NCBI GenBank assembly: GCA_021154885.1
Contig: JAJKHS010000144.1
Coordinates: 248,001-312,000 of the forward strand
DNA: 64,000 bases
Direction: 5' to 3'
Origin: Thermoanaerobaculum sp.
GTDB taxonomy: Bacteria; Acidobacteriota; Thermoanaerobaculia; Multivoradales; UBA5704
Of the stretch, positions 38,221-58,799 are shown piece after piece. Below the pieces are notes generated by a model. That model saw only the letters and a list, made by a program, of their open reading frames with translations. It ran no database searches and was not told the DNA's origin. Position numbers and translations under genes: made by a program. The stretch's first letter is position 1, and the number at the start of each line of letters is the position of its first letter.

Positions 38221-38353
38221 TTCCTTCCTCTCCTCGCCAAGCCTCTCCGCATCCTCTAGACTCTGGGAGCTCCGATCCACCTCGCCGCTTCCGGGCGTCG
38301 CGAAGTGCGGTAAAATCGGAGCCGCTCGCCGATACCCTGAGCCTTTGCCGGAC

Positions 38354-41300
38354 ATGCCCTCAGAAACCATCGCCACCATCGCCAGCATCGCGGTCATTGC
38401 AGAGAAGCCCGCCGTCGCCCGGGACATCGCCCGTGTGCTCGGCGCGAGCCAGCGGGGGGAGGGCTTTCTCCAGGGCAACGGCTACGTCGTGACCTGGGCC
38501 ATCGGCCATCTGGTCACCCTCGCCCAGCCCCACGAGATCAATCCGGACTGGCGGCGCTGGCGGCGGGACCTGCTGCCCATGCTCCCCCGCGACTGGCCTC
38601 TCGTCGTCGCCGAGGACACGAAGGAGCAGTTCGAGGCCGTCCGCCGGGTGATCACCGCCCCCGGCGTCGAGCGCATCGTCTGCGCCACGGACGCCGGCCG
38701 CGAGGGCGAGCTGATCTTCCGCTACATCTACGAGGCGGCCGGCTGCTCCAAGCCCGTGCAGCGGCTGTGGATCTCCTCGCTCACCGCCGACGCCATCCGC
38801 CAGGGCTTCCGCAAGCTGCGCGACGGCCACGACTTCGACCCGCTCGCCGACGCCGCCCGCGGCCGCAGCCGGGCCGACTGGCTGGTGGGGATGAACCTCT
38901 CCCGCGCCTACACCCTGGACTTCAACGAGGACCTCTCCGTGGGGCGCGTCCAGACCCCCACGCTCGCCATGCTGGTGGAGCGCGAGCTGGCCATCCGCGC
39001 CTTCGTGCCTGAGGACTACCTGGAGGTTCTGGCCACCTTCTCGCCCGAGGGGACTATCGGGGCCAGGGGAATCGAGGAGGAAGCCCGTCCTTCTTATAAA
39101 GGCACCTGGTTCCGGGGAGACTCACCCCATCCCGAGGCGAAGCGGATCAAGGCGGCGCCGGACGCGAAGCCGGGGTCGGATCTCGAAGAGGCCATGCGGA
39201 TCGTCGGCCGGGCTCGCACCGGCCGGGCGGAGATCGAGTCGATCCGCGCCGAGACCAAGAGGATGCCGCCGCCGCTCCTCTACGACTTGACGGAGCTGCA
39301 GCGCCACGCCAACCGCCTCTACGGCTTCAGCGCCAAGAAGACCCTGGGGCTCGCCCAGACCCTCTACGAGCAGAAGAAGCTCATCAGCTATCCGCGCACG
39401 GACAGCCGCCACCTCTCGACCGACGTCGCCGCCACCCTGAACGAGATCGTGCGCGCCGTCGAGGGTCCCTATCTCAACAAGCTGGCCCCCGGCACCGGCG
39501 AGCGGCCCTTGAGCAAGCGGTTCGTGGACGACTCCAAGGTCACGGACCACCACGCCATCATCCCCACGCCGACCTCGCCCGCGGGCGCCGACCTCCTCGA
39601 CGACGAGCGCAAGGTCTACGACCTCATCTGCCGGCGCCTGCTCTCCGCCTGGCACGACGACCACGTCTGGTCCGTCACCACCGTCATCACCGCCATCAGC
39701 AATCCCCCGCCCTCGGGGATCGGCGAGCCGGCCGTGGACCGCTACCACAGCACCGGCACGCTGGTGGATCAGGTGGGCTGGAAGGTGCTCGATATCGAGA
39801 GGAAGAAGGCGAAGAGAAAGGACGACAAGGACGACAGGGACGACAGGGACAAGAAGAAGGACGACGAGGCCGCCGACCCCGCTCCCGTCGAGGAGAACCA
39901 GGACCTGCCGCCGGGCCTGACCCAGGGCCAGGCGCAGGAGGTGCTGGACGTCCGCGCCGTGGCCAAGCAGACCCGGCCGCCCAAGCGCTTCACCGAGGCG
40001 ACCCTCCTCACCGCCATGGAGACGGCCGGCAAGACCCTGGACGACAAGGAGCTCTCCGACGCGATGAAGGAGTCCGGCCTGGGGACTCCGGCCACCCGGG
40101 CGGAGATCATCGAAACCCTCCTGCGCCGCGAGTACATCGTGCGCACCGGCAAGACCCTGGAGGCGACCGACAAGGGCGTCCGCCTCGTCGAGGTCGTCCA
40201 CCCCCACGTCAAGAGCCCCGCCATGACCGGTCAGTGGGAGGCCCAGCTCCAGCGCATCCAGCGCGGCCAGGGCGATCTCGCGGCGTTCATGAAGGGGATC
40301 GAGGAGTACGTGCGGGAGGTGGTGGGGGGAGGCCTCACCTGCCCGGCCGCCACCCCCCTCCCAAGATCCCTCACCCCTGTCCCCTCTCCCGCCGCACTCC
40401 CCCCGACCGGGAGAGGGGGACCCGGAGGTCGCGGTCTTGCTGGTCTCCCTCTTCTCCCGGTTGGGGGGAGTGCGGTGGGAGAAGAGGGTCGGGGTGATGA
40501 GGGTCTTGGGCGGGCGCGCTCTGAGGCCAGGGTAGCCGCCCCCCGCGCCCACGACCTCCCCACCCTCCTCCGCACCGCCTTCCGCCTCACCGCCTTCCGT
40601 CCCTACCAGGAGGCGGTCTGCAAAGCGGTCGTGGCAGGCAAGGACGTCCTCCTCGTCATGCCCACGGGCGCCGGCAAGTCGCTCTGCTATCAGCTCCCCG
40701 GCCTCGCCCGGGGGGGCACGACGCTGGTCGTCTCGCCGCTGATCGCCCTGATGGAGGATCAGGTGGCCAAGCTCCGGGAGCTGGGCCTCAAGGCCGAGCG
40801 CATCCACTCGGGCCGGGATCGCTCCGCGTCGCGGCAGGTGTGCCTGGATTATCTGGCGGGCAAGCTCGACTACCTCTTCATCGCCCCCGAGCGTCTCTCC
40901 GTCCCCGGCTTTCCCGAGATGCTGGCCAGGCGCACGCCGGCCCTCATCGCGGTCGACGAGGCGCACTGCATCTCCCAGTGGGGGCACGACTTCCGGCCCG
41001 ACTACCGGCTGCTGGGCGGACGCCTGCCGCTGCTCCGGCCGGCGCCGGTCATCGCCCTGACCGCCACCGCCACGCCGCTCGTGCAGGACGACATCGCCGC
41101 CCAGCTCGGCCTCGCCCGCGAGGAGCGCTTCATCCACGGCTTCCGGCGCACCAACATCGCCGTCGAGCCGGTGGAGATGCTCCCCTCGGACCGCGCCGAC
41201 ACCGTCCGCCGCATCCTGGCGGACCCCGAGCGCCGGCCGGCCATCGTCTACGCCCCCACCCGCAAGGAGGCAGACCTCCTCGGCACGCTCCTGCACGACG

Positions 41301-42604
41301 ACTTCCCCGCCGCCACCTATCACGCCGGCATGACCACCCACGAGCGCGACCGCGTGCAGACCGCCTTCCTCTCCGGCCGGCTGGAGGTCATCGTCGCCAC
41401 CATCGCCTTCGGCATGGGGGTGGACAAGGCGAACATCCGCACGGTCATCCACACCGGCCTGCCCGGGAGCGTCGAAGGCTACTACCAGGAGATCGGCCGC
41501 GCCGGCCGCGACGGCCTCCCCTCGCGCGCCATCCTCCTCTACTCCTACAACGACCGCCGCAGCCACGAATGGTTCCACAACCGCGACTACCCCGAGGTGG
41601 CCGAGCTCGACCGCATCTTCCGCGCCCTCAATTCCCAGTCCCAGGTGGACGGCCAGGTCCGCAAACGGCTGGGGATGGACGAGGAGCTCTTCGAGCGCGC
41701 CCTGGAGAAGCTGTGGATCCACGGCGGCGCCCTGGTGGACGCGGACGGCAACGTCGCCCTCGGCACGACTGCGGCCAGCGGCTGGCAGCGGGCCTACCTG
41801 GCGCAGCGCGACCACAAGCTCGAGCAGCTCGAGCGGATGGTGCGCTACGCCGAGTCCCACGGCTGCCGCATGCTCCATCTCGTGCGCCACTTCGGCGACC
41901 AGGAGGACTCAGGGCAGCCGTGCGGCCTGTGCGACGTCTGCGCTCCGGACGACTGCGTGGCCCGCCGCTTCCGGGCGCCCAACGACCTGGAGCGGGAGCT
42001 GCTGGTCAGCGTCCTCAAAGGCCTGCGCCGGCGCGACGGCCAGTCCACCGGCCAGCTCTACCGCGAGATCTGCCCGGACGAGCTCTCGGACCGCAAGTCC
42101 TTCGAGCGCCTGCTGGGCGGCATGGCCCGCGCCGGCCTCCTCAGGCTCCAGGAGGACGCCTTCGAGAAGGACGGCAAGACCATCCGCTTCCAGCGCGCCG
42201 TCCTGACCCCCGAAGGCTACAACGGCGATCCGGCGATCATCGGCCGGGTGGAGATGGCCGAGGAGATGCCCAAGACGCGGAAGAAGCGCCAGCGCCCAGA
42301 CAAGGGGGAATCTCGGGCCTATCGCGAGCGGCTCGCGGCCCGCGCCGGCCAGGAGGGCCTCGCACCCGGCGCGGCGCCCGAGCTGGTCTCGCCGCCGCTC
42401 GTCGAGGCCCTCAAGGTCTGGCGCCGGGCCGAGGCCAGCCGCCGGCGCGTTCCCGCCTTCCGCATCCTCACCGACCGCGCCGTCCACGCCCTCGCCGCCA
42501 GCCGGCCGCAGAGCGAGTCCGACCTCCTCAACGTCCCCGGCATCGGGCCGACGATCGTGCAGAAATATGGGCGGGAGATCCTGGGGATCGTGGGCCAGGG
42601 GTGA
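38354..42604 (+). CDS. Topoisomerase III-RecQ helicase fusion protein
   Basis: A 1416-residue fusion. Residues 1-665 are a type IA topoisomerase: TOPRIM (VIAEKPAVARDIARVLGA with Glu17; CATDAGREGE, Asp113-Glu119) and active-site Tyr346 in LISYPRTDSRHL. Residues about 735-1225 are a RecQ helicase: PTGAGKS (Lys775), VDEAHCISQWGHDFRPDY (Asp868), RQC zinc ligands (CRMLHLVRHFGD...CGLCDVC), and a C-terminal HRDC domain. Top3 and RecQ normally act as partner proteins to dissolve double Holliday junctions; here both lie in one chain. A Lys/Asp-rich insert (about 485-505) and a palindromic repeat (670-719) interrupt conserved regions. No C-terminal topoisomerase zinc ribbons. Start codon ambiguous by three codons (TTG upstream). 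Confidence 0.92.
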   Translation: MPSETIATIASIAVIAEKPAVARDIARVLGASQRGEGFLQGNGYVVTWAIGHLVTLAQPHEINPDWRRWRRDLLPMLPRDWPLVVAEDTKEQFEAVRRVITAPGVERIVCATDAGREGELIFRYIYEAAGCSKPVQRLWISSLTADAIRQGFRKLRDGHDFDPLADAARGRSRADWLVGMNLSRAYTLDFNEDLSVGRVQTPTLAMLVERELAIRAFVPEDYLEVLATFSPEGTIGARGIEEEARPSYKGTWFRGDSPHPEAKRIKAAPDAKPGSDLEEAMRIVGRARTGRAEIESIRAETKRMPPPLLYDLTELQRHANRLYGFSAKKTLGLAQTLYEQKKLISYPRTDSRHLSTDVAATLNEIVRAVEGPYLNKLAPGTGERPLSKRFVDDSKVTDHHAIIPTPTSPAGADLLDDERKVYDLICRRLLSAWHDDHVWSVTTVITAISNPPPSGIGEPAVDRYHSTGTLVDQVGWKVLDIERKKAKRKDDKDDRDDRDKKKDDEAADPAPVEENQDLPPGLTQGQAQEVLDVRAVAKQTRPPKRFTEATLLTAMETAGKTLDDKELSDAMKESGLGTPATRAEIIETLLRREYIVRTGKTLEATDKGVRLVEVVHPHVKSPAMTGQWEAQLQRIQRGQGDLAAFMKGIEEYVREVVGGGLTCPAATPLPRSLTPVPSPAALPPTGRGGPGGRGLAGLPLLPVGGSAVGEEGRGDEGLGRARSEARVAAPRAHDLPTLLRTAFRLTAFRPYQEAVCKAVVAGKDVLLVMPTGAGKSLCYQLPGLARGGTTLVVSPLIALMEDQVAKLRELGLKAERIHSGRDRSASRQVCLDYLAGKLDYLFIAPERLSVPGFPEMLARRTPALIAVDEAHCISQWGHDFRPDYRLLGGRLPLLRPAPVIALTATATPLVQDDIAAQLGLAREERFIHGFRRTNIAVEPVEMLPSDRADTVRRILADPERRPAIVYAPTRKEADLLGTLLHDDFPAATYHAGMTTHERDRVQTAFLSGRLEVIVATIAFGMGVDKANIRTVIHTGLPGSVEGYYQEIGRAGRDGLPSRAILLYSYNDRRSHEWFHNRDYPEVAELDRIFRALNSQSQVDGQVRKRLGMDEELFERALEKLWIHGGALVDADGNVALGTTAASGWQRAYLAQRDHKLEQLERMVRYAESHGCRMLHLVRHFGDQEDSGQPCGLCDVCAPDDCVARRFRAPNDLERELLVSVLKGLRRRDGQSTGQLYREICPDELSDRKSFERLLGGMARAGLLRLQEDAFEKDGKTIRFQRAVLTPEGYNGDPAIIGRVEMAEEMPKTRKKRQRPDKGESRAYRERLAARAGQEGLAPGAAPELVSPPLVEALKVWRRAEASRRRVPAFRILTDRAVHALAASRPQSESDLLNVPGIGPTIVQKYGREILGIVGQG
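40361..40509. repeat. Palindromic repeat element embedded in the coding linker
   Basis: Two arms (40361-40422 and 40442-40509) form a long imperfect hairpin: CCAAGATCCCTCACCCC pairs with GGGGTGATGAGGGTCTTGG, and a 23-base stretch beginning CCGCACTCCCCCC at about 40393 is inverted at about 40453 with one mismatch. Such CTCACCCC...CTCCCG...GGGAGAGGGG elements are common intergenic repeats in GC-rich bacteria. Here it is read in frame, giving the Pro/Gly-rich linker (residues about 670-719) between the topoisomerase and helicase. Confidence 0.75.
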
Positions 42605-42676: not shown

Positions 42677-43471
42677 ATGAGCACCATCCTGAAGCTCTCC
42701 TTCCTCGCCCTGGTCCTGGCCGTCCTCGCTCCCCGCGGGGGCTCCGGCGCGGCGGCGGCCGACTCCGACCGCACCGCCGTCGTCGAGCTCTTCACCTCCC
42801 AGGGGTGCTCGAGCTGCCCGCCGGCGGATAGATTGCTGGCCAAGCTGGCCCACGACCCCCAGTACCAGGGGAGGGTCATCCCGCTATCGTTCCACGTCGA
42901 CTACTGGAACTACATCGGCTGGCAGGACCCCTTCTCCTCGGCGCGCTGGTCCGACCGGCAGAAGCTCTACGGTGCCCGGGTGTTCCACACCAACCGGATC
43001 TACACCCCGCAGGTGGTGATCAACGGCCGGGCGGAGTGCGTGGGCTCCGAGGAGGGGCAGGTGATCGGCCGCATCGGCGACGCCCTGAGCCAGGAGCCGG
43101 CCGGCCGGGTCACCCTGGCCGTCGATCCGCCCACGCCGGACGGCCACCTGCGGGTGAAAGTGGGAGCCAAGATGGCCCGCGCCGCCGGATCGGGGGACCT
43201 CGACCTCTGGGTGGCCATCTACGAGAGCGGGCTGTCCACGCCGGTGAAGGCGGGGGAGAACGCCTCGCGCGTCCTGCGCAATGACCGGGTGGTGCGCCGC
43301 TTCGAGAAGGCCCTGACCCTGCCGGCCGCCGCCGGCTCCGAGAAGTCGGCCGAGATCGTCCTCGGCATCGACAAGCGCTGGAAGGTGGACGCCCTGGGAG
43401 TGGCCGCCTTCCTCCAGGACCCGGCGACCCTGGCCATCCAGGGAGCGGCGGCGCGAGAGGTGGGGCGGTAG
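42677..43471 (+). CDS. DUF1223 secreted thioredoxin-fold protein
   Basis: A 264-residue exported protein with a signal peptide (about 1-27) and the DUF1223 core VVELFTSQGCSSCPPADRLL, with redox pair Cys44/Cys47, followed by SFHVDYWNYIGWQDPFSS and YTPQVVINGRAECVGS. It is thioredoxin-like but of unproven function; a thiol-oxidoreductase role is plausible. GGAGGTCCGATCCC precedes the ATG. Its last 127 bases, including the stop, are repeated at 44409-44538 on the other side of a foreign-looking insertion. Confidence 0.88.
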   Translation: MSTILKLSFLALVLAVLAPRGGSGAAAADSDRTAVVELFTSQGCSSCPPADRLLAKLAHDPQYQGRVIPLSFHVDYWNYIGWQDPFSSARWSDRQKLYGARVFHTNRIYTPQVVINGRAECVGSEEGQVIGRIGDALSQEPAGRVTLAVDPPTPDGHLRVKVGAKMARAAGSGDLDLWVAIYESGLSTPVKAGENASRVLRNDRVVRRFEKALTLPAAAGSEKSAEIVLGIDKRWKVDALGVAAFLQDPATLAIQGAAAREVGR

Positions 43472-43615: not shown

Positions 43616-44219
43616 ACCCAGCCAGCTTGCGCCTCAAGTATTCATGCGGATCATCGATGGGCTCGCCCCATTCCTCCTCATTCGTGAAATCAAGGTAGGG
43701 GAGACGACCACAAAATGCCTGGTAACCATCGGCCAACCTGGAATAGGCGTCCTCATCCACGGCAGCTCGACGGTTCTTACCCCAGACGTGAGAATCGAAG
43801 TGGGTGTTTAGCGCCTTCGTCAATCTTCCCAGACTTCCTGCGTCCATCCGTCCATACTTTTCGGCGACCAGGTCCACAATGGCCAGCTCTTCCTCGGTGA
43901 GGTCGTTGTCTGGTTCGCCAGCCAGGGAGATCTGCTTGCCGCCTTCTGAGAAGGAGTGCGGCGAGATGTCAAAAGGTCCTTGGATGTCGCCGCCATTCTG
44001 GACGTAGGACCAGACCTCGCTCGTGACGACGCCATGATCCCAGGTCTCGTGCGTGCCATCGGTTATGTGGCGACCAAGATAGTGGGTCGCCTCGACGTCG
44101 ACCAGGTAGGGAAGCTTCACGGCACGGGTCGTGGTCATCGGGCCTAGCTTTTCGCATAGCCTTGCCACGACCGCCTCAAGCCTTCGGCTTAGGCGCTCGC
44201 CTTTTCTCAGTTTCGCCAT
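43614..44219 (-). CDS. Panacea (SocA-like) antitoxin-domain protein
   Basis: A 201-residue protein with a Panacea/DUF4065-type core: VKLPYLVDVEATHYLGR, TWDHGVVTSEVWSYV, a mid-protein EEELAIVDLVAEKYGRMDA and LGRLTKALNTHFDSHVWG. Panacea proteins act as chaperone-like antitoxins for many unrelated toxins. The gene following it on this strand is a truncated toxin-like frame, so the system is probably inactive or the antitoxin is now an orphan. Start ATG with GGAGCTCCAAGA upstream. AT content is higher than in the neighbours, consistent with recent arrival. Confidence 0.75.
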   Translation of the reverse strand: MAKLRKGERLSRRLEAVVARLCEKLGPMTTTRAVKLPYLVDVEATHYLGRHITDGTHETWDHGVVTSEVWSYVQNGGDIQGPFDISPHSFSEGGKQISLAGEPDNDLTEEELAIVDLVAEKYGRMDAGSLGRLTKALNTHFDSHVWGKNRRAAVDEDAYSRLADGYQAFCGRLPYLDFTNEEEWGEPIDDPHEYLRRKLAG

Positions 44220-44408
44220 TCTTGGAGCTCCGCCAGACAGCACAGGCTGGGGAATCATGAAAGCCAGCCTTGGGCCTCAGCATACCACTACCAAGCTGCC
44301 TACACAAAATCTAAGGGTCCTGGTAGACACTGGTACCAGATTTAGTGGCGCAAGAAAGGCGTAGGGCCGTCCACAGTGCCTCCATGCCGGGAAAAGGCGG
44401 GGAGAAAT

Positions 44409-44538
44409 GCCGAGATCGTCCTCGGCGTCGACAAGCGCTGGAAGGTGGACGCCCTGGGAGTGGCCGCCTTCCTCCAGGACCCGGCGACCCTGGCCATCCA
44501 GGGAGCGGCGGCGCGAGAGGTGGTGGGGCGGTAGGAGC
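44409..44538 (+). repeat. Direct repeat copy 2 (duplicated end of DUF1223 gene)
   Basis: These 130 bases duplicate 43349-43475, reading in frame EIVLGVDKRWKVDALG ... GAAAREVVGR and stop, but without the rest of the gene. It is a C-terminal fragment of the DUF1223 gene and marks the far edge of the Panacea insertion. Bases 44220-44408 between the Panacea start and this copy hold no recognisable gene; they presumably carry its promoter and include the palindrome TGGTACCA near 44332. Confidence 0.9.
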
Positions 44539-44576
44539 CTGCTTCGGCCATAGCAGGAATCGCTGTCAAGGCAGCA

Positions 44577-44828
44577 GTCACTGCTGGGCCGCCAGCGGTC
44601 GCTGCTGGGCTGGCAGCAGTCGTTGCTGGCTCGGCAGCGGTCGCTGCTGGGCCGCCAGCGGTCGTCGCTGGGCCGGCAGCAGTCGCTGCTGGGTCGCCAG
44701 CGGTCGTTGCTGGGCTGGCAGCAGTCACTGCTGGGCCGGCAGCGATCGTCGCTAGGCTGGCAGCAGTCGCTGCTGGGCCGGCAGCGGTCGTTGCTGGGCT
44801 GGCAGCGGCCGTTGCTGGCTCGGCAGCA
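44577..44828. repeat. Minisatellite, 12 units of 21 bp
   Basis: Twelve consecutive 21-base units with consensus GTCGCTGCTGGGCCGGCAGC plus A/G. Each unit is an imperfect palindrome (CGCTGC ... GCAGCG). Because 21 is a multiple of three, several frames on both strands stay open, giving heptapeptide repeats such as LGRQRSL (plus) and Ala/Thr/Pro-rich repeats (minus). No convincing start and ribosome-binding site goes with any of them, so I treat it as non-coding. The remaining 44829-44942 holds only a decayed further unit. Confidence 0.9.
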
Positions 44829-44942
44829 GCCGCTGGCAAGGTAGGAGTCGCCGCTGCCGTGATAGCAGTTGGCGCTCGCCACCAGCCGTTCAGAGCTGCG
44901 GTATGGAGATTGCCTGGAAGCGGGAGAAAAGGACCAGGCGGC

Positions 44943-45737
44943 CTAGGAAGGCGCGGCGGCAGGCTTCACGACCCGGAAGGTCCAGGTCTTGTCGGACAGC
45001 GGGGAGCCGTCCTTCCGGAGCCGGAGGGTGTATTCACCGGGCTCCAGGCCGGCGCGGATAAGGACTATATGGACACCTTGGACACCAGGGAGAGGGCTGA
45101 GGGGACTTCTCTGGGAGACCTTTCCCGTCTCGTCCACGACCTCGGCTTCGAGGTTTCCCGAAGCGTTCGTCGTCAGGAACAGGACTTTGAACCGGTCGTT
45201 GGGAAACTCTTGGATAGAGCTCCGCACCACGCCACCCGCACCCATGTCGACCGTATCGAAATCGAAGGCGACGAGAGTCTTCGTGTGGGCGAGTTGATCG
45301 CCCGGCTGCCGGACGGCGTGGAGCCAGCCGCCCGCGGCCACCGTCGCCGCCAGGCTCGCGGCGAGGGCCGCGGCGCGCCAGGTCCGCGGGGCGGCGCCGG
45401 CTGCGGGACGCGGCTTCGCGACCGGGAACACGGCGACGTTGTCCTCCTCCTCCAGCCGCCGGCTCATTCGCGCCATCTCCAACTCCGCGGCGCACTCGGC
45501 GCACGCGGCCAGGTGCTCCTCGGCGGCGAGAGAGGGGTCTTCCCCCCAGGCGAGAGCCACCAGATCCTGGGCGGGGACGTGCTGGGTGAACACCGACCAG
45601 GCCTGTCCGGTCTCGGCCAGGGCCGCGCGGCAGCGTTCGCAGGTCTCCAGGTGCTGCCGGACTTCGGCGAGCTCCCCGGATTCGAGGGTGCCATTCAGGT
45701 ACCAGGGGAGGAGCTCGATGGCTTGGTCACAGGTCAT
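44943..45737 (-). CDS. Anti-sigma factor with two zinc-finger motifs
   Basis: A 264-residue membrane protein. Two zf-HC2-type motifs are visible in the cytoplasmic part: HLETCERCRAAL (about 29-40) and HLAACAECAAEL (about 73-84). A transmembrane helix (AAALAASLAATVAAGGWL) follows near residue 125, and a periplasmic beta domain (VVDETGKVSQ ... GEYTLRLRKDGSPLSDKTW) ends the protein. It should sequester the sigma factor encoded directly upstream; the genes overlap by 11 bases. The sensory domain resembles the beta-sandwich in other such regulators. Start ATG lacks a strong Shine-Dalgarno, as expected for coupled translation. Confidence 0.85.
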   Translation of the reverse strand: MTCDQAIELLPWYLNGTLESGELAEVRQHLETCERCRAALAETGQAWSVFTQHVPAQDLVALAWGEDPSLAAEEHLAACAECAAELEMARMSRRLEEEDNVAVFPVAKPRPAAGAAPRTWRAAALAASLAATVAAGGWLHAVRQPGDQLAHTKTLVAFDFDTVDMGAGGVVRSSIQEFPNDRFKVLFLTTNASGNLEAEVVDETGKVSQRSPLSPLPGVQGVHIVLIRAGLEPGEYTLRLRKDGSPLSDKTWTFRVVKPAAAPS

Positions 45738-46395
45738 TAGGTTTCGCCCTTTCACTCTTGTTAGGCGAACCTTTGACCGTGACGTTACGCCCATTCGCCG
45801 TCCCGCCGTCCAGGAGATCCCGCCTCAAGGCGGCCGCCTTCTCCCGGCAGCGCAGGACGCGCACCCGCAGCGTCCCCTCCGCGACGTTCAGGCGCACGCT
45901 CATCTCCTTGTAAGAGAGGCCCGCCAGGATCATGCGCCACATCTCCCGGCAGTCCTGAGAGACCCGCTCCAGCACTCTGAGGAGCAGGTCCCGGTCCTCC
46001 CGGTTGGAGGTGGGGACGTGGAACGCGGCGGCGGGGCCCTCCCCCTGGTCCAGGGTGTCCAGATCGGCCCACTTCCACTTGCTCTGGGCCCGGAGTTGGT
46101 CGAGGCAGGTGTGGCTGACCACCCGCCAGAGATAGGTGCGCAGGCTCGACTCGCCCCGGAACTTCCCCTGGCCGAGGAGGCGCGTCACCTCCAGCCGGAC
46201 GTCCTGGAGGACGTCGTCCCAGCGGTCGGCCAGCCGGCGCTGATATGGCCACGCGGCGCGCGAGATCCAGCCGTCCACCGTCCCTACCGCCTCGGTTTCG
46301 CCCCGTAGAAAGCGGGCGACCATCTCCCGGTCGTCCGTCGCCATAGACAACATCCTATAGTCTCCAGTCCCCCTTGCGTATTCTCCAGGCTCCAT
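45727..46395 (-). CDS. ECF-type RNA polymerase sigma factor
   Basis: A 222-residue sigma-70 family protein with region 2 (RLADRWDDVLQDVRLEVTRL, SSLRTYLWRVVSHTCLDQLR) and region 4 (MWRMILAGLSYKEMSVRLNV, AEGTLRVRVLRCREK). The C-terminal tail (after about 195) is a charged extension. AGAGGAGGACTCGCG precedes ATG 46395, fixing the start against internal Met at 14 and 18. It is co-encoded with the anti-sigma factor and divergent, with a 45-base gap, from the CHAT protein gene, its likely target. Confidence 0.9.
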   Translation of the reverse strand: MEPGEYARGTGDYRMLSMATDDREMVARFLRGETEAVGTVDGWISRAAWPYQRRLADRWDDVLQDVRLEVTRLLGQGKFRGESSLRTYLWRVVSHTCLDQLRAQSKWKWADLDTLDQGEGPAAAFHVPTSNREDRDLLLRVLERVSQDCREMWRMILAGLSYKEMSVRLNVAEGTLRVRVLRCREKAAALRRDLLDGGTANGRNVTVKGSPNKSERAKPNDL

Positions 46396-46440: not shown

Positions 46441-49400
46441 TTGACCTACGTGACAGCTTCGTGCGCATTCCGCTCACTTCGCATCCTCTCCTTCTGCGGA
46501 GTGGCCTTGCTGGTGGCCGGCCTCGCGGCGGGATGTAGGCGTAAGCCCCTGGCTCCCTACCCCGGCGACCTGGGGCTTCCACCGCAGCCGGGTTCCTTTA
46601 TCGAGCGCGAGGTCCGCGGCGGGGCGAGACAGGGATTCAGCCTTCGCGTTACCGACGGTACCTTCGTCGTCCTCGAGATCTCTCAGCGTCGCGCCAGTCT
46701 GTCGTCCAGACTGCGGGATCCGTACGGAGACGAGGTTGCCGTGGGGGAGGGAGGTGGATCTCTCGACTCCCAACTCCTCGCTTGGATAGCTAGGGAGACC
46801 GGCACCTACCGCATCGACGTGAGCGCCTCGGGCTCACCGAAGCTCGCAGGCCGATACAGGGTGACGGTGCGTGTGATGCAACACCCGCCGGTGGCCGGGG
46901 ACGAGGCCCGGGTCAGAGCTGCCAAGGCACTGACCGAGGGCCGTCGTTTCGAAAAGAGCAGGCGCCGAGAGGCGATCACTCGGTTGCAGGAAGCTCTCGC
47001 CGCGTGGAAGGAGGCGGGAGACGGCCGTGGCGAGGTGGAGACCCTCGGAGACCTGGCCCTCCTGAAAAGCCACCAGGGGGACCCTCAGGCCGCCCGCGAC
47101 TGGCAGAAGAAGGCCGTGGCGCGCGCCCATGAGATCGGTTTTACGGGAGGTGAGGCCAGGGCCCTCTCCAACCTGGGCGACTACACCCTGCCCTCGGGAC
47201 AGTACGACCAGGCGATCGATCTCTACCGGCGATCCCTGAGCCTCTGGCGCCAGGCGGGCGGGGCTTACGAGCAGGCTTCCACGCTCGAAAGCCTTGGCAC
47301 CGCTTATCTGTACCAGGGTAAGCCGGATGCTGCACTGGAGGCGTTTCAAGAGGCCCTGCCTCTGGCCGTCGAGGCCGGTGACGTCGTGCGGCAGGCCAGG
47401 GTCCTGATCGGCATCGGTTCCTCCCGCTACAACGAGGGCCAACTCGGCGAGGCGCGGCAGGCCTTCGAGAAGGCCTTGGAGCTCAGCCGGTCCGTCGGCG
47501 GCGACGCGAGGTCCGAAGTCTCGGCGGAGCACAACCTGGGTGCGATCTACCAAACCAAAGGTCAGCTCCAGAAGGCGGTGGAGATGTATACCCGGCTGGT
47601 CCGCTCAGGGGGGCAGCCCGAGGATGTGGGGGTCCACTTTCTCAACTTGGGCGCGATCTTCCTCGAGTTGGGGGAGCCGGAGAAGGCACTGAAAAACTAC
47701 ACTCTCTCCAGAGAGGCCTACCACCAGGCGGGTAGACCCGACCTCGAGGTCGGTGCGCTGGTCGGCATTGGCTCGGCTTATCAGAGGATGGGAGAAAAGG
47801 CCAAGGCGCTGGGTGTGCTCGAAGAGGCTCGCAGGGTAGCTCCTCAGGAATCGTGGACCGTTCTCCATTACCTGGGAGTCGCGCAGTACGTCGCGGGCCG
47901 GCCCCAGGAAGCGCTTCCCACCCTGGAGCGGGCGCTCGCCAAGGCCCAAGCGAGCCACACCCCTTCGAGCGAAGCTCCAACCCTGCTTGCGTTGGGCTCG
48001 GTCTACCGTGACCTGGGCAAGCTGGATCTCGCGGCCGACCGGTTCGGTCAGGCCATCGCTGTGGGGTCCTCCATCGAATTGCAGAGAGTCGTAGCTCCTG
48101 CTCTGCTGCGGCGTGCCGGGCTGTGGAGTGACCGGGGCCGCCTCGCCGCGGCCCGGAGCGACGTCGAGAGCGCCCTGAAGATCGTCGAGTCCACGCGGGA
48201 CAACATTGCGGGATCGCAGCTCCGGACGAGCTTCCTGGCCAACCGGCGGAATTTCTACGAGCTCTACATTGGCTTGCTGCTGCGGCTGGCCCGCTCGCAT
48301 CCCGGGAAGCACTACGAGGACCTGGCCTTGGCGGCCAGCGAGCAGGCCCGGGCCCGCGGGATGCTGGACCTGCTGGCGGAAGGACGCATCGACGTCAGCC
48401 AGGGGCTCGACCCCGATCTTCGACAGCGGGAGAACCAGCTCTCCGACGAGCTCGCCCAGGCGCAGATCCACCTGCGCGATCCCGGGACGACGCCGGACCA
48501 AGCCCGGGACCTGCGCGCAGCGCTCGACCGTCTGGACGAGCGCTGGCAGGCGCTCGACCTGGAGATCCACGCCCGCAACCCGCGCTACGCCCAGGTCCGT
48601 TACCCGAAGCCGCTGACCTCCTCCGAGATCCAGCGCCGGGTCCTCGACGACCGCACGGCCCTGCTCGAGTTCTTCCTCGGAGAGGAGAGCTCCGTCCTGT
48701 TCGTGGTGACCCGCTCGCAGATCCACAGCTTTCCCCTGCCTCCCGAGGGGGTCATTGCGGAACAGGTCCAGCGGCTGCGAGAGGCTCTGGAGAAGGAGAG
48801 CAATCTCACCCGCAAGGACTATTTCGATCTGGCTTACCGGCTGTATCAGACGCTCCTGGCGCCGGCTTCCAGGTCGTTCGTCGGCAAGTCCTATCTTCTG
48901 GTCGCCCCCGACGGGCCGCTCTATTACATCCCCTTCGAAACCCTGCTCACCGCGCCGGTGACGGAGGACCGTGACTACGGGAGCCTGCCCTATCTCCTGC
49001 GCCAAGTCCCCATCGCCTACGTCCCGTCGGCCAGCGTGCTCGCCGGCCTGCGCGATCCGCGGCCGGAGCCTCTGGCGGCGGAGCGCACGCAGGTCGCGGC
49101 CTTCGCCCCTTTCGCCTCGTCCGCGCAGAGCGGGTTCCAGCGCCTGCCCGCCTCCCAGCAGGAGGTCGCCGGAATCGCCGGGCTCTATCCCGGGGAGGCG
49201 GTGAGCTTCCTGGACGATGCGGCCACCGAGGACGTGGTCAGAAGTCCCCGGGTGGCCAGCGCCCGCCGGCTCCACCTCGCCACCCACGCGAAGACCGACG
49301 AGCGCTATCCGGAGAACTCCTACCTGGCGCTGAGGGCGCGCGGCGGCTCCGGGGGGCTGCTGCAGGTGCGCGAGATCTTCAACCTCAAACTGTCCGCGGA

Positions 49401-49695
49401 GTTGGCCGTCCTGTCAGCCTGCCAGACGGGGCTGGGCAAGGAGGTTACGGGCGAGGGCCTGGTCGGTTTGACGCGAGCTTTCTTCTATGCCGGTGTGCCT
49501 AGTCTCGTGGTAAGTCTGTGGAACGTCACGGATGGGCCGACGCCGGATCTGATGCTGGATTTCTACAAAGATCTCGACCAGCTGCACGATAAGAGCAAAG
49601 CGCTGCAGAGAGCCAAGCTGAAGATGATTGCGGATGGTCGATACCCCCATCCCTCCTACTGGGCGCCCTTCATACTGATCGGAGAGCCTCGATGA
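46441..49695 (+). CDS. CHAT-domain TPR lipoprotein (caspase-like peptidase)
   Basis: A 1084-residue protein. A lipoprotein signal (LSFCGVALLVAGLAAGC) is followed by a beta-rich N-terminal domain (to about 140), about ten tetratricopeptide repeats (150-600), a coiled linker, and a C-terminal CHAT domain (about 760-1080). The catalytic pair of this caspase-like family is present: His949 in HLATHAKT and Cys994 in LSACQTGLG. Export and lipid anchoring would place the peptidase outside the cytoplasm, which is unusual. Start is TTG; the GTG three codons on is equally plausible. The adjacent sigma/anti-sigma pair probably controls it. Confidence 0.88.
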   Translation: MTYVTASCAFRSLRILSFCGVALLVAGLAAGCRRKPLAPYPGDLGLPPQPGSFIEREVRGGARQGFSLRVTDGTFVVLEISQRRASLSSRLRDPYGDEVAVGEGGGSLDSQLLAWIARETGTYRIDVSASGSPKLAGRYRVTVRVMQHPPVAGDEARVRAAKALTEGRRFEKSRRREAITRLQEALAAWKEAGDGRGEVETLGDLALLKSHQGDPQAARDWQKKAVARAHEIGFTGGEARALSNLGDYTLPSGQYDQAIDLYRRSLSLWRQAGGAYEQASTLESLGTAYLYQGKPDAALEAFQEALPLAVEAGDVVRQARVLIGIGSSRYNEGQLGEARQAFEKALELSRSVGGDARSEVSAEHNLGAIYQTKGQLQKAVEMYTRLVRSGGQPEDVGVHFLNLGAIFLELGEPEKALKNYTLSREAYHQAGRPDLEVGALVGIGSAYQRMGEKAKALGVLEEARRVAPQESWTVLHYLGVAQYVAGRPQEALPTLERALAKAQASHTPSSEAPTLLALGSVYRDLGKLDLAADRFGQAIAVGSSIELQRVVAPALLRRAGLWSDRGRLAAARSDVESALKIVESTRDNIAGSQLRTSFLANRRNFYELYIGLLLRLARSHPGKHYEDLALAASEQARARGMLDLLAEGRIDVSQGLDPDLRQRENQLSDELAQAQIHLRDPGTTPDQARDLRAALDRLDERWQALDLEIHARNPRYAQVRYPKPLTSSEIQRRVLDDRTALLEFFLGEESSVLFVVTRSQIHSFPLPPEGVIAEQVQRLREALEKESNLTRKDYFDLAYRLYQTLLAPASRSFVGKSYLLVAPDGPLYYIPFETLLTAPVTEDRDYGSLPYLLRQVPIAYVPSASVLAGLRDPRPEPLAAERTQVAAFAPFASSAQSGFQRLPASQQEVAGIAGLYPGEAVSFLDDAATEDVVRSPRVASARRLHLATHAKTDERYPENSYLALRARGGSGGLLQVREIFNLKLSAELAVLSACQTGLGKEVTGEGLVGLTRAFFYAGVPSLVVSLWNVTDGPTPDLMLDFYKDLDQLHDKSKALQRAKLKMIADGRYPHPSYWAPFILIGEPR

Positions 49696-58554: not shown

Positions 58555-58568
58555 AGCCGCCCCCGATC

Positions 58569-58799
58569 CCGCTCATCGGCTTCGCGAAGCCTCTCATCGG
58601 CTTCGCGAAGCCCGTCACCGGCCTCGCGAAGCCCGTCATCGGCCTCGCGAAGCCCGTCATCGACCTCGCGAAGCCCGTCATCGGCTTCGCCATGCCCGTC
58701 ATCGGCCTCGCGAAGCCCGCGCCGGGCCTCGCGAATTCTCGTAACGGCCTCACGAATTCTCGTAACGGCTTCGCGGGGCCGCTGAGGGGCTTCGCGAAG
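58569..58799. repeat. Minisatellite, 11 units of 21 bp, between convergent genes
   Basis: Eleven 21-base units, consensus CCCGTCATCGGCCTCGCGAA plus G; several contain the perfect palindrome GGCTTCGCGAAGCC. It fills the gap between the convergent hydrolase (stop 58554) and acyltransferase (stop 58806) genes. In-frame translation gives heptapeptides such as KPVIGLA (plus) or GFARPMT (minus), open on both strands but without credible starts. Terminator-like or structural function is possible. Confidence 0.9.

Follow-up and report, generated by a model that had tools for sequence, protein, structure and literature searches.

A topoisomerase III and a RecQ-family helicase are encoded as one continuous polypeptide in the window, i.e., the whole 64,000-nucleotide stretch of DNA analysed here. 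In at least three phyla, soil-type bacteria make the two enzymes as one protein, which probably serves as a single-chain unlinking enzyme working like the two-protein RecQ–topoisomerase III dissolvasome. The gene occupies positions 38354..42604 of the plus strand, on which all of its features described below also lie, and consists of 1416 codons and a stop. Its frame has no internal stop and translates into 1416 residues, as the original prediction of a single topoisomerase III–RecQ frame had it. The ATG at 38354 is assumed to be the start; the frame stays open upstream of it (1478 codons from stop to stop), so the start codon is unsure, and a TTG at 38345 would yield 1419 amino acids. The chain runs from topoisomerase III (residues ~14–657) through a low-complexity linker (658–734) to RecQ (735–1416), the latter comprising a helicase core, a zinc site, a putative divergent winged helix, and an HRDC domain. 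Pfam places Toprim at 14–142 and Topoisom_bac at 162–647 in the first half, and DEAD at 749–907, Helicase_C at 949–1054, RecQ_Zn_bind at 1150–1196, and HRDC at 1349–1413 in the second.

The topoisomerase III half (residues 14–657, 38393..40324) exceeds the cut-offs of two topB family models, PRK07726 (654.8 bits versus 597) and TIGR01056 (560.7 versus 515.75 bits), and its AlphaFold2 model matches the structure of E. coli topoisomerase III, 1i7d, with a Z of 37.6. Both the acidic residues of the TOPRIM domain and the active-site tyrosine within SYPRTDS are present, at the positions originally predicted. Glu17 (38402..38404) is a glutamate in 38 of 41 fused relatives, the remainder being two gaps and one Trp; the DAGREGE motif at residues 113–119 (D113 to E119, 38690..38710) is identical in 40 of the 41, with one gap; and Tyr346 (39389..39391) is likewise a tyrosine in 40, with one gap. 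The genome from which the window comes holds only one other Topoisom_bac-family gene, the product of which is 27% identical to this half.

The RecQ helicase core (residues 735–1068, 40556..41557) is delineated by its conserved motifs and by the family model TIGR00614 (recQ_fam), which gives 378.9 bits versus a cut-off of 219.8, with the SF2 motifs conserved. The equivalog model for classical bacterial RecQ, TIGR01389, scores 459.9 versus a cut-off of 640.2; going by these profiles, the half is a RecQ-family member, and we do not call it a classical RecQ orthologue. The Walker A motif PTGAGKS (residues 770–776, 40661..40681) is kept in all 41 fused relatives except for a change of Ala773 to Ser in four of them, and the DEAH box (868–871) and motif VI (1045–1054) are in place. 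The cysteines of the RecQ zinc site at 1171, 1190, 1193, and 1196 (41864..41941) are conserved in 38 of 41 relatives, with three gaps, and lie in a region that matches PF16124 above its cut-off; the HRDC domain (residues 1349–1413, 42398..42592) matches PF00570 with 66.7 bits against a cut-off of 23.8. The core, the zinc ligands, and HRDC had all been anticipated in the original prediction. Residues ~1211–1284 (41984..42205) form a putative divergent winged-helix (RQC) region, for which AlphaFold2 gives helices and two strands at a pLDDT of ~84–91; the Pfam winged-helix model PF09382 has no match in the 1416-residue chain, and mean identity over residues 1201–1340 is 36% among fused relatives. 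The model of the RecQ half has a mean pLDDT of 86.8 and matches RecQ/BLM structures, and a model of residues 1–1200 has a mean pLDDT of 76.3 and a pTM of 0.52. Since two further RecQ-like genes occur elsewhere in the genome, the fused chain need not be its main RecQ.

Reverse gyrase also joins an SF2 helicase-like domain to a type IA topoisomerase, and the presence of these two enzyme classes in one chain invites the alternative that ATP hydrolysis by the helicase powers directional supercoiling. We regard such an activity as highly improbable for several reasons: the helicase is N-terminal in reverse gyrase, whereas the topoisomerase comes first here; the reverse gyrase (rgy) model scores 114.7 bits versus a cut-off of 471.7; and the two halves are connected by a linker predicted to be disordered, not by a fixed interface. 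The zinc site, putative winged-helix region, and HRDC domain of the RecQ half also set the fusion apart from reverse gyrase.

Conservation was measured as identity to the window protein in an alignment of the 41 fused relatives. Mean identity is 73% for the TOPRIM segment, 60% for the remaining topoisomerase, and 73% for the helicase core, then 51% for the zinc region, 36% for the winged-helix region, 47% for HRDC, and 18% for the linker. The catalytic and motif columns are kept throughout, with one to three gaps per column and one non-Glu at position 17, and the variation tolerated within motifs is limited to Ala/Ser at Ala773 and Ile/Leu/Val at Ile1047. This pattern suggests that selection retains both enzymes but not the sequence that joins them. 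In one fused relative, L236 (G142:C4), the open frame breaks off within RecQ, past query residue 587 of 686, with one TGA counted inside the genome-search match; this relative may have lost HRDC, or its sequence may contain an error.

The fusion recurs in the family, order, class, and phylum (Acidobacteriota) of the window. One full-length relative from the same family (G003) is 71% identical. BLASTP of open frames also found the two halves sharing a frame in relatives at the order and class levels, among them G033, G044, G029, G016, G023, G036, G135, G140, G143, G144, G146, G147, and G148. Named records of Bryobacterales, Acidobacteria, Myxococcaceae/Myxococcales, and Bdellovibrionales (among L053–L061 and L069) also carry it by BLASTP, and in a Myxococcaceae-centred sample, BLASTP of the open frames confirmed it in 13 of the 20 stretches examined. 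Phylum-level searches used the RecQ half alone as the query. In the Myxococcaceae-centred sample, drawn from the phylum of a Myxococcaceae genome, this half was matched at 1e-150 in 49 of 117 genomes; for 42 of these, the match falls in a frame 1219 codons long or longer, the uninspected frames being judged by length. Within the class of the window, 50 of 149 genomes have a match, a mix of fused genes, RecQ-only genes, and pieces at contig ends. Among the 5000 best-scoring plasmid records, none covers 80% of the query. The fused order had been called uncommon in the original prediction, which holds only in part: the fusion forms an established family of apparently single origin, with long frames in those 42 of 117 genomes.

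An assembly or annotation artefact, in which two genes were wrongly joined across a repeat-rich junction, deserves consideration, as the junction holds a palindromic repeat with at least 40 copies in the genome, where short-read assembly is error-prone. This explanation now has a negligible probability. Fused frames occur in many independent genomes, relatives are fused with unrelated linkers, and several fused genes lie within contigs of 9–13 Mb (G386, G421, G449, G445, and G427), so an assembly join cannot be the general cause. It had been reasoned beforehand that relatives encoding two separate genes would speak against a real fusion; when related genomes were searched and counted, close relatives proved to be fused, and such separate genes did not appear.

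The linker (residues 658–734, 40325..40555) has a mean identity of 18% and varies from 27 to 249 residues among the relatives, with no evident constraint on length or sequence. AlphaFold2 predicts it to be disordered, with a pLDDT of ~28 over residues 661–731. Most of it is a translated, in-frame copy of a dispersed palindromic repeat (40353..40519), a feature that was missed when the fused chain itself was correctly recognised. Inverted arms at 40385..40419 and 40448..40482 pair with each other at 89% complementarity, and the RNA fold of 40353–40520 has an energy of −135.5 kcal/mol; ribosomes might pause at this mRNA hairpin, between the two halves. The repeat is present in at least 40 places in the genome, a count taken from 40 scored candidates out of 334, with 30 copies aligned, and the other copies are 78–93% identical to it. 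The copy in the linker can be read through in the frame of the gene and contains stops in one of the three forward frames. Since the set of open frames varies among the other copies, finding one open in the repeat is unremarkable by itself.

Repeats related to that of the window linker also occur in G001, G002, and G003. The linkers of three related genomes, G146, G147, and G148, contain a different dispersed palindrome (GGCGTGAAATCGTGTAT...) that is unrelated to the window repeat (L157:3178-3390, L135:3535-3735, and L138:2025-2210); the one in the G146 linker has many related copies elsewhere in G145–G148. Hence, in apparently two lineages or more, unrelated repeats were inserted into the linker with the frame left intact. 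Rickettsia palindromic elements are dispersed palindromic repeats that lie in frame inside genes, and the window repeat is likewise in frame within coding sequence. It differs from these elements in repeat sequence and host, as well as in its location in a flexible linker between two enzymes, where different lineages carry unrelated repeats.

In a topoisomerase tree of 59 rows, a clade of 45 members with an SH-aLRT support of 99 contains 42 fused proteins and three that look non-fused and run into contig ends (L154, L163, and L164). The fused topoisomerase halves thus have an apparent single origin. The three candidates for a stand-alone topoisomerase III of this clade, in G001, G002, and G008, are thus cut off by contig ends, and no intact stand-alone member was found in the 149 class genomes or the 59-row tree, in which the sample of stand-alone topoisomerases III is small (n = 13). 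The corresponding clade of the RecQ tree (support 99, over a weakly supported backbone) mixes fused and RecQ-only proteins. In it, the RecQ-only proteins of family f25 fall together with named records of Acidobacteriaceae/Acidobacteriales, in keeping with Acidobacteriota as the phylum of the window. Constraining the fused RecQs to a single clade was rejected (log-likelihood lower by 121.6, p-AU 0.000136). For the f4/g5 genomes, which have RecQ-only relatives, the type IA topoisomerase matches listed are only ~30% identical, and a comparably close topoisomerase III is not among them.

These trees are most simply read as a single fusion event, after which the topoisomerase half was lost repeatedly. 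Several independent fusions are not needed to explain the data, as the fused topoisomerase halves form one clade, a judgement made with a weak RecQ backbone and few stand-alone topoisomerases. Transfer of the fusion between phyla may also have taken place. Since the topoisomerase half was apparently lost several times and RecQ kept, coupling would be dispensable in some lineages.

RecQ and topoisomerase III are established partners as separate proteins in E. coli, yeast, and humans (PMC8191776, PMC8185306, PMC4109787), and this partnership counts in favour of a one-chain unlinking enzyme. The original prediction of a natural one-chain RecQ–topoisomerase III enzyme is further borne out by the retention of the catalytic residues across the 41 relatives and by the match of both modelled halves to known structures. 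What each half of the fused chain does, how the two are coupled, and on which substrates they act is our inference. In the proposed mechanism, the C-terminal RecQ half would act as an ATP-driven helicase of 3'-5' polarity, opening DNA or driving its branch migration, and the N-terminal topoisomerase III half would cut, pass, and reseal the single strand thus exposed. The disordered tether would keep the topoisomerase near RecQ, setting stoichiometry and local concentration and imposing no fixed geometry. The pair would thereby remove precatenanes, links between converging forks, and double Holliday junctions without crossover, much like unfused RecQ and topoisomerase III in other organisms. 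A role as a Holliday-junction dissolvase may be considered on this basis, and decatenation or the resolution of converging forks fits equally well. We tentatively suggest, as an idea with perhaps a one-in-three standing, that RecQ–topoisomerase III coupling needs only a tether and no specific interface: throughout a clade-wide family, the two motors would remain joined, the linker being freely replaced, even by translated repeats.

Alternatively, the fusion may merely ensure equal production of two enzymes whose halves are independent and mechanically uncoupled. The unconserved, disordered linker of 27–249 residues suits this explanation, as do the persistence of RecQ alone in many related genomes and the matches listed for the f4/g5 genomes. 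If the link were irrelevant, however, separated topoisomerase III and RecQ pairs would be expected, and the fact that the topoisomerase half of this clade was seen only attached to RecQ, across the 149 genomes and 59 tree rows, counts against it; we consider equal production alone rather unlikely. The coupled, single-chain unlinking enzyme is the reading that we favour; the equivalog score of the RecQ half, the two further RecQ-like genes, and the apparent losses of the topoisomerase half weigh against it.

E. coli RecQ with topoisomerase III, yeast Sgs1–Top3–Rmi1, and human BLM–TopoIIIα–RMI1/2 combine the same two catalytic modules as the fusion. These dissolvasomes are assembled from separate polypeptides, joined in eukaryotes via RMI/OB-fold proteins, whereas the fusion is one chain with a disordered linker. 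In Listeria (NZ_LR134400.1), recQ is followed by topB at a distance of 23 bp, so both enzymes are encoded together as in the fusion; however, these are two genes in RecQ–topoisomerase III order, in contrast to one frame in the reverse order. No description of a topoisomerase III–RecQ fusion was found in the open-access literature, covered mostly at the level of titles and abstracts, which makes this a weak negative. According to a review, it is not established if the catalytic domains of RecQ and the topoisomerase ever touch or communicate during double-Holliday-junction dissolution (PMC4109787). The natural one-chain form, whose linkers span 27–249 residues and which is conserved in bacteria including named Myxococcaceae, makes this directly testable, and a history of one apparent fusion with repeated loss of the topoisomerase half lets genomes that have the link be compared with genomes that lack it. 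We propose that the fusion is a natural test system for how both machines cooperate.

Repeats of other kinds lie downstream of the fused gene in the window. A 120-nt direct duplication, 98% identical, is located at 43349–43468, where it makes up the 3' portion of a gene for a DUF1223 protein, and at 44409–44528, 1 kb downstream, where it adjoins a tandem array of a 21-nt unit in ~12.7 copies (44570–44835). A SocA/Panacea-domain protein is encoded on the minus strand at 43617–44258. The minus strand also carries a zf-HC2 protein with a sigma-70-like gene at 44946–46395, and this pair adjoins a plus-strand gene for a TPR-CHAT protein (46441–49692). A second 21-nt tandem array, with the unit CCCGTCATCGGCCTCGCGAAG in ~8 copies, is found at 58568–58756.
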